Virus record (IMG/VR): IMGVR_UViG_3300020395_000102
Location: 1 to 24,130 of that record
Length of the DNA stretch: 24,130 nt
Direction: 5' to 3' (one strand)
From: a virus
Shown here piece after piece: positions 1 to 604 of the stretch; within the stretch, counting starts at the first letter, position 1; each line of letters starts with the position of its first letter. A program made the translations under genes and the position numbers. The notes beneath the pieces are model-generated. The model saw nothing but the letters and a program-made list of their open reading frames with translations, did not search any database and had not been told where the DNA came from.

Positions 1-149
1 ATCATCGCTAGGCGACCATTGAGTTGCTCTGCATTCTTCCAGTAATCATGATCGGTATCAACCTGAATCTGAGGTTCATGAGCAAACATGTTCTGCTTAC
101 CATACTCAGTAGTTGTGTACCTCTTCATGGTATTGGTAGAAGAAGTCAT
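1..149 (-). CDS. hli: High-light-inducible protein, 3' end cut by window edge
   Basis: Translating the minus strand from the ATG at 149 gives 49 codons still open at base 1. The last visible residues contain AEQLNGRLAMI, the chlorophyll-binding ExxNxR signature of the single-helix Hli/CAB-like family, followed by the start of the membrane helix. The polar N-terminus (about 35 residues, rich in Thr, then FAHEPQIQVD) is typical of cyanophage Hli proteins. In the family, Hlips sit in the thylakoid membrane and bind chlorophyll and carotenoid, protecting photosystem II under light stress; phage copies are thought to keep photosynthesis running during infection. A TATAAT box lies about 30 bases upstream, but no Shine-Dalgarno sequence is visible. 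The transmembrane helix itself lies outside the window. Confidence 0.9.
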   Translation of the reverse strand, partial: MTSSTNTMKRYTTTEYGKQNMFAHEPQIQVDTDHDYWKNAEQLNGRLAM

Positions 150-258: not shown

Positions 259-453
259 TTAGTAATCATTATCATTTGTCTGTGACTCCACCCACTCAGC
301 ATTGTTTCTACAGTATGCATCAGCATCTATTTCCATACGCCAGTGGGTGAGAGTATGAAGAGTTTGTATCATGACCATCATACCCAGTATCAGCATAGGT
401 CCTATCCAGAGTGGATGCATTACTATATCTTCTGTTTCTTTCATTGACCTCAT
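259..453 (-). CDS. Small single-pass membrane protein, unknown function
   Basis: A 64-codon ORF whose product has one hydrophobic segment at about residues 13-32 (LWIGPMLILGMMVMI core) and an acidic, polar C-terminus of about 27 residues ending NDNDY, so a single-pass inner or thylakoid membrane protein is likely. The start is uncertain: ATG at 453 is the first, but the ATG at 444 has GAGG just upstream and the ATG at 420 begins right before the hydrophobic segment. It is preceded by its own TATAAT box and by a strongly structured leader (460-525), and it is followed by hli 110 bases further on with no clear terminator between, so the two may be co-transcribed. I do not recognise the family. 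Confidence 0.65.
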   Translation of the reverse strand: MRSMKETEDIVMHPLWIGPMLILGMMVMIQTLHTLTHWRMEIDADAYCRNNAEWVESQTNDNDY

Positions 454-459
454 TAGTGT

Positions 460-525
460 GGTAGGTTCCTATCGCCGCTATTCCTGAACCTACCGAAGGG
501 GAATACCGCAGTCAAAGGTAGCGAT
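460..525 (-). promoter_or_regulatory. Structured 5' leader RNA with H-type pseudoknot
   Basis: Read as minus-strand RNA, the roughly 80-nt leader between the TATAAT box and the ATG at 453 holds three pairings. Stem X pairs CGGUAUUCC (508-500) with GGAAUAGCG (484-476), 8 of 9 pairs. Stem Y pairs GGUAGGUUC (494-486) with GAACCUACC (468-460), 9 perfect pairs. The order X5'-Y5'-X3'-Y3' is an H-type pseudoknot with loops of 5, 1 and 7 nt. An outer stem AUCGC (525-521) with GCGAU (475-471) stacks directly on X. Stem Y ends 6 nt before the first ATG, so folding could gate ribosome access. This looks like a riboswitch-class cis-regulator; the wcaG RNA motif reported from cyanophages upstream of light-related genes is one possible identity, from memory and unchecked. 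Confidence 0.6.
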
Positions 526-541
526 GCCTTGTGACTCAAAT

Positions 542-569
542 ATTATAACATAAAAAAAGACCCCTGCAA
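542..569 (-). promoter_or_regulatory. Promoter fused to the preceding terminator
   Basis: A perfect TATAAT (542-547, minus strand) follows the seven-T tail of the upstream terminator by four bases. The best -35, TTGCAG, lies inside the terminator stem 16 bases upstream and is poor. Predicted transcription starts near 535, so the transcript begins with the structured leader of the small membrane protein. Confidence 0.5.
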
Positions 570-580
570 AGCAGAGGTCT
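552..580 (-). terminator. Rho-independent terminator after the beta-barrel-like gene
   Basis: On the minus strand AGACCTCTGC, loop TTT, GCAGGGGTCT form a 10-bp stem with one U-G pair, followed by seven T (558-552, the first of which also closes the stem). It lies 25 bases beyond the stop of the 605-988 gene. Confidence 0.9.
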
Positions 581-604
581 CGATCCATCTCGAACTAGAG
601 ATAT

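Follow-up and report, generated by a model that had tools for sequence, protein, structure and literature searches.

Structured leader RNAs are a known feature of cyanophage genomes. The manA and wcaG motifs are cyanophage leader RNAs that have been put forward as riboswitch candidates (PMC2864571), and RNAs of the kind of the glutamine and Downstream-peptide riboswitches (RF01704 and RF01739) occur in both cyanobacteria and cyanophages (PMC2864571). GOLLD and ROOL are phage RNAs of hundreds of nucleotides that lie near tRNA islands and form RNA cages, and GOLLD joins a conserved 3' part to a less conserved 5' part (PMC12286853). Stabilizing stem-loops of the ompA/papA type are generic hairpins, located at the extreme 5' end and independent of the gene behind them. 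Very few of the phage leader RNAs known so far serve both tRNAs and mRNAs.

The window analyzed here is a 24,130-nucleotide stretch of virus DNA (IMG/VR record IMGVR_UViG_3300020395_000102, positions 1 to 24,130). Its protein relatives and BLAST matches are cyanophages, and judged by sequence it is a section of a T4-like cyanophage genome; blastn of the first query also gave matches to Staphylococcus and Streptococcus phages. The window contains a member of a new leader RNA family of the same general kind as manA and wcaG, with the unusual features that it is locked to +1, is common to tRNAs and mRNAs, and has an exchangeable 5' arm.

The family resembles each of the above systems in part. It shares with wcaG (RF01761) the T4-like cyanophages and marine metagenomes, the leader position, and a place near hli or exopolysaccharide genes, but wcaG has a 98-position model with another sequence and fold. 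The original prediction had offered wcaG as a possible identity; we discarded it, as the wcaG model of Rfam has no match in the window at an E value of ≤10, and genuine wcaG copies are separate elements found elsewhere in RB11-B, S-H68, and S-B05 (in RB11-B, 3.5 kb from the element). Like the element, manA (RF01745) is a cyanophage leader found before metabolic genes and inside tRNA clusters, whereas it is a 192-nucleotide multibranch RNA with no sequence or structural match to the element. It is found near the element in all three of these phages: in P-SSM2 it precedes purL, and in RB11-B and ACG-2014f it comes straight after the first cluster tRNA, so that the order there is element, one tRNA, manA (loci L085:290-487, L087:1636-1846, and L088:1630-1840). 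GOLLD and ROOL share the proximity to tRNA islands but are far larger than the 55-nucleotide core of the element, which has no Rfam match to them, although some members carry an additional domain of 115 to 260 nucleotides. The ompA/papA stem-loops share the 5'-terminal, gene-independent stem, to which the element adds a conserved pseudoknot with invariant loops. The resemblance to RF01704 and RF01739 lies in the compact pseudoknot or leader; unlike them, the element has no Rfam match and no consistent gene theme and also stands before tRNAs.

Architecture and setting of the element

Bases 535 to 460 of the window (minus strand, as are all features of the element) encode a P0 hairpin followed by an H-type pseudoknot, and the family as a whole has the order sigma-70 promoter, P0 at +1, UG, H-type pseudoknot, and then a tRNA or a start codon. 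In the P0 hairpin (511 to 535), which is delineated by the minimum free energy fold and covariation, GUCA (535-532) pairs with UGAC (514-511) and AAGG (530-527) with CCUU (518-515). A conserved UG linker (509 to 510), part of the ACUGC signature, connects P0 to the pseudoknot. Stem S1 is formed by CGGUAUUCC (508-500) and GGAAUAGCG (484-476), with 8 of 9 positions paired and one G.G mismatch, and stem S2 by GGUAGGUUC (494-486) and GAACCUACC (468-460), with 9 of 9 paired; all four strands are supported by covariation. Loop L1 (CCUUC, 495 to 499) has an invariant CCUU, a lone A (485) separates S2 from S1, and loop L3 (GCGAUAG, 469 to 475) has the family form GC[G/U]AUAG. Most members are about 80 nucleotides in total.

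The two interleaved helices had been proposed in the original prediction with exactly these pair counts, and they are confirmed. Its extent of 460 to 525 is right at the 3' end and too short at the 5' end, where the element reaches 535. An outer 5-bp stem, AUCGC/GCGAU, which had been placed on top of the first helix, can be formed in the window but is not a family feature: the UCGCUACC loop is absent from about 150 of the 179 homologues listed, GCUAU replaces GCGAU in 6 of the 28 that have the loop, and P0 (535-511) occupies this place.

Upstream of the element lies the gene of a small phrog_417 protein with a signal-peptide-like start (605-988), which is closed by a terminator-like hairpin (557 to 581, minus strand) overlapping the –35 region; it is the 3' arm of this terminator that overlaps the –35 region of the next operon's promoter. 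That promoter is of the sigma-70 type and has 10 of 12 matches (TTTGCA-17-TATAAT, 570-542, minus strand). Its –35 element TTTGCA (565 to 570) is separated by a 17-nucleotide spacer from the –10 element TATAAT (542 to 547, as first reported), whose spacing to P0 is fixed across the family. From the promoter, +1 is predicted to be the G at 535, the first base of P0, 6 nucleotides past the –10 element. A start downstream of base 500 is thus not what the promoter predicts, and the idea that the pseudoknot leader makes up nearly the whole 5' untranslated region is borne out.

The gene behind the element encodes a small membrane protein of unknown function (phrog_2587/phrog_27060; 259 to 453, minus strand) and is followed by hli, encoding a high light inducible protein (phrog_178; 3 to 149, minus strand), which runs off the window. 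The leader had been described as ending 6 nucleotides before the start codon. This distance is correct for an alternative AUG at 453-451, but the likely start codon is the AUG at 442 to 444 (minus strand; MKETED...), 15 nucleotides past S2, a distance close to the median of 19.5 for the family: homologues begin at the same methionine and align to it (MKETED.../MKKTED...).

Comparative evidence for the pseudoknot

The folding energy of the element region was not distinguishable from that of shuffled sequences (z = 0.42). This z-score is uninformative because the nested-fold program is blind to a pseudoknot, and the fold was therefore examined through homologues. Two pattern scans recovered the family from marine virus data with at least 120 matches each; the IMG/VR scan used a pattern from the 3' half alone and gave at least 120. 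The comparison covered 179 distinct homologous elements, from cyanophages and marine virus contigs. CTGC-N8-CCTT, which is not in the 3'-half pattern, was present in 92 of the 93 matches listed that had an extended S2 and the family spacing, and GGC[G/T]ATAGGAA was present in 69 of 75 elements retrieved with a 5'-half pattern lacking that motif.

The homologues fall into a long class and a short class (L1 of 4 nucleotides, S2 of 8 bp). Among the 57 distinct 55-nucleotide cores of the long class, 94.5% of the pair cells held standard pairs (79.8% when shuffled), 143 cells were double changes (38.9 when shuffled), and 11 pairs were altered on both sides. The 31 cores of the short class behaved alike, with 94.1% of the pair cells standard, 45 double changes (10.6 when shuffled), and 10 pairs altered on both sides. 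When the partner strand was slid by one column, pairing fell to 44 to 51% in either class, and none of 500 shuffles reached the covariation score. As many as six standard pair types occur at S1 pairs. Because the search pattern itself fixed the UUC/GAA of S2 and parts of the loops, the invariance of these positions in the long-class alignment is not evidence, and the evidence for S2 comes from the remaining five or six pairs. G-U and U-G cells were numerous, and outside the G.G position only 3 cells in the long class were unpaired, which points to an RNA transcribed from the minus strand.

A covariance model scored the window's element at 80.4 bits (E of about 3e-21), with that sequence itself included in the model. 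A divergent relative, L035, scored only 13.7 bits; by inspection, both of its helices appear to be preserved, though built from other bases. A second match of the model in P-SSM2 (20.6 bits) spans the gp14/gp15 coding junction and was rejected as chance. With two interleaved helices that each show compensatory change in the 57 and 31 distinct homologues, as the original prediction had anticipated, the comparative evidence indicates that the H-type pseudoknot is real and beyond chance.

The 5' arm varies from a small hairpin to a large domain

When the start of P0 was set from the promoter alone (an alignment version was also run), P0 pairs 3 to 6 were kept in 49 to 66 of 70 distinct cases, compared with 35 to 52 in shuffled sequences, and C-G, U-A, A-U, and G-C pairs all occurred at the kept positions. 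As a universal 4-bp stem with its start fixed by the –10 element alone, P0 gave a weak signal (42 of 68, against 24.6 by chance), because its first bases are nearly constant and the members with a long P0 drop out; the promoter-anchored count of pairs 3 to 6 gives the clearer picture.

At its smallest P0 is a GNRA hairpin, and at its largest a structured domain of about 260 nucleotides. P0 is a small hairpin in most members, with either a GAAA or GAGA loop, GAGAAAUA, or the UUCGCUACC loop of the window; in others, 70 to 260 nucleotides separate the two P0 strands. One such large domain folds into a multibranch structure of its own, in which pairs covary and the internal loops are invariant, and it has no Rfam match. 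The conserved core thus forms the 3' module of an RNA whose 5' arm varies.

Two enlarged types were noted. A domain of about 115 to 260 nucleotides nested in P0 contains GGUUCAGGUGUAAGCGAUUCC and GUAAAUUUGG, both invariant; its stems covary, different structured inserts occupy an additional insertion site within it, and it has no Rfam match (L262:4542-4715 region; L100, L147, L156, L158, L197, L278, L292, L318, and L321). A second type contains AAGUCCCCCCGAUGGUACAAUGGGGCUGAGUAUAAGCAGCAUAUGUAC upstream of the core (L189, L193, L172, L255, L264, L272, and L317) and is conserved between phages with differing downstream genes.

Fixed position at the predicted transcription start and variable downstream genes

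A promoter with at least 9 of 12 matches precedes 149 of the 179 elements listed, and in 147 of these 149 the –10 element lies 5 to 7 nucleotides before P0, compared with 3.4% and no preferred spacing for shuffled upstream sequence. An independent count found a spacing of exactly 6 nucleotides in 140 of 162 promoter-linked elements. The spacing is unchanged even where P0 lies inside the end of the upstream coding gene, in which TTGACG-17-TATGAT is embedded. P0 is therefore predicted, from its spacing to the promoter, to begin at the first transcribed nucleotide.

What comes after S2 differs between elements. Among the elements listed, 64 have a tRNA 1 to 5 nucleotides past S2 (43 Arg-UCU, 19 Pro-UGG, 1 Gly, and 1 Thr), 84 have the start of an open reading frame (median, 19.5 nucleotides; usually 14 to 30), and 10, including that of phage S-SKS1, have a second promoter instead of a gene. 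The protein genes belong to at least a dozen unrelated families, including PurM (six times), PurH, a phosphate-binding-type protein, peptide deformylase, tryptophan halogenase, a phosphomannomutase-like HAD protein, DUF6561, a ferredoxin-annotated phrog, and small proteins of unknown function, and no common pathway emerges from the 64 tRNA and 84 open reading frame contexts listed. Across the family contexts, no conserved alternative pairing was noticed behind the element, and inspection by eye revealed no conserved terminator behind it. In six virus contigs (L147, L158, L268, L288, L314, and L318), GAGGAGAUGGAUGUGCCUC...CCCAC...AACUAACAUCC recurs just downstream of the core and looks like another structured RNA.

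Several homologues of the window's membrane protein share its terminator and promoter yet lack the element; in these, the ATG lies 6 nucleotides past the –10 element, at +1 itself. The element thus behaves as a removable cassette between +1 and the AUG. Such apparently leaderless homologues (ATG 6 nucleotides past TATAAT) are L039 to L042, L066, L070, L071, L073, and L076.

Distribution

One strong copy was found in each of 11 carrier genomes searched whole (P-SSM2, ACG-2014f, RB11-B, S-B05, S-SCSM2R, SynMITS9220M01, S-SKS1, S-SM2, Bellamy, and two single-cell phages), and the element is accessory, as only some cyanophages have one. The element was not found when 84,980 genomes of bacteria and archaea were scanned with exact patterns: one pattern had no match in bacterial genomes, and the 4 matches of the other lack the 3' half and are due to chance. 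At this pattern-level sensitivity, the family is restricted to phages. Rfam 15 had nothing above the gathering score at the element (best chance match, E of 7.6), in line with the first suggestion that, if not wcaG, the leader may be new. No prior report of the motif appeared in the literature searched, although a supplement or a non-open paper may hold one, and a literature search on T4 RNA C/D gave nothing. The element is recurrent in marine virus data and isolated phages, yet it is in no RNA catalogue searched.

Possible functions

Members of the family have the transcription start and the immediate 5' position in common rather than the gene, which argues for a role in RNA stability or transcription over gene-specific control of translation. 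Our favored reading, to which we assign a probability of roughly 0.4, is that the element is a cis-acting 5'-terminal leader that may protect early phage transcripts of any gene from 5'-end-dependent decay. The 5' end would be sealed in a blunt P0 stem with the compact pseudoknot behind it, and the transcript would thereby become a poor substrate for the pyrophosphohydrolase step, for 5'-sensing RNase E, and for 5'-3' RNase J, in a host in which the phage increases RNase activity. On mRNAs, about 20 nucleotides of free linker would be left for the ribosome; on tRNAs, the leader would end just before the RNase P site.

This reading is favored because a 5' stem blocks decay in model bacteria, cyanobacteria have RNases E and J, and RNase E rises in the infection by at least one cyanophage. 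Stem-loops at the 5' terminus stabilize bacterial mRNA; in model bacteria, 5'-end-dependent decay is known to be blocked by a blunt 5' stem, and the RppH of Bacillus subtilis requires no fewer than two unpaired nucleotides at the 5' end (PMC3997798). Besides RNase E, cyanobacteria possess a 5'-3' RNase J, which degrades RNA without a 5' triphosphate, but no close RppH homologue is known in them (PMC10989914). Infection by one cyanophage increases RNase E in the host (PMC9692554); that phage is a T7-like podovirus, whereas the phages considered here are myoviruses. Further points stand against protection. tRNAs hardly need more of it, and where a second promoter follows the element, the next gene can do without the leader. 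A specific tertiary fold or partner is suggested by the invariant loops; combined with a swappable P0 holding a conserved domain, they exceed the needs of a simple blocking hairpin and point toward a ligand, a protein partner, or a role in trans.

We also entertain, tentatively, a more far-reaching reading: a new phage RNA device in which the 55-nucleotide pseudoknot ends an RNA locked to +1, the 5' arm can be swapped for domains of up to about 260 nucleotides, and the whole would be a front end shared by tRNA arrays and auxiliary metabolic genes, working through a dedicated partner (host RNase, RNA polymerase, ribosome component, or ligand) and not as passive structure.

The original prediction likened the leader to translational riboswitches and suggested light or metabolite control, on account of the neighboring hli gene. 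A new riboswitch class, in which small-molecule binding by the pseudoknot would govern initiation at the next gene, would account for the compact fold with invariant loops directly upstream of start codons and for the metabolic genes behind it (purM six times, purH, and the phosphate-binding-type protein), and it has precedents in the candidates manA and wcaG (PMC2864571). A translational switch is possible for the protein genes; it fails for the roughly one-third of elements that stand before tRNAs. The same leader precedes tRNA-Arg, tRNA-Pro, and many unrelated genes sharing no pathway, so a light- or metabolite-specific translational riboswitch is unlikely. Moreover, the start codon usually lies 14 to 30 nucleotides past S2, outside the fold, and neither a conserved alternative pairing nor a terminator was seen behind the element (terminators by eye only).

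It is likewise doubtful that the element is a trans-acting phage RNA, as a decoy, an antitoxin-like molecule, or a structural RNA, with the downstream gene or tRNA as a mere neighbor or 3'-end former. The single strong copy in each of the 11 carrier genomes, the frequent location beside tRNA clusters as for GOLLD and ROOL, the conserved 3' and variable 5' parts as in GOLLD (PMC12286853), and the retention of the element in S-SKS1 and its relatives, in which the next gene is driven from a promoter of its own, would all fit such an RNA. The fact that it closely adjoins dozens of different start codons and tRNAs would not, nor would its accessory occurrence and the absence of a conserved terminator or 3' end of its own.

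From its place at the transcript start, the HK022 put RNA acts on the polymerase that is transcribing it. An analogous RNA favoring read-through of untranslated or structured early operons would explain why the element is always promoter-proximal, lies upstream of tRNA arrays and mRNAs alike, and adjoins arrays rich in hairpins; we consider it improbable, given that no conserved terminator follows the element and that each genome has a single copy. A DNA-level signal, such as an operator or a replication origin, would fit the single copy per genome and the fixed relation to the promoter but is hardly tenable in view of the strand-specific G-U pairs and the compensatory changes in three helices, including the pseudoknot.

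The isolates P-SSM2, S-SM2, Bellamy, and S-SKS1 make the element directly testable. If it binds a ligand or a protein, it would represent a new riboswitch or effector class; if it stabilizes early transcripts or acts on the polymerase, it would show how cyanophages sustain their own RNAs amid host RNA decay.
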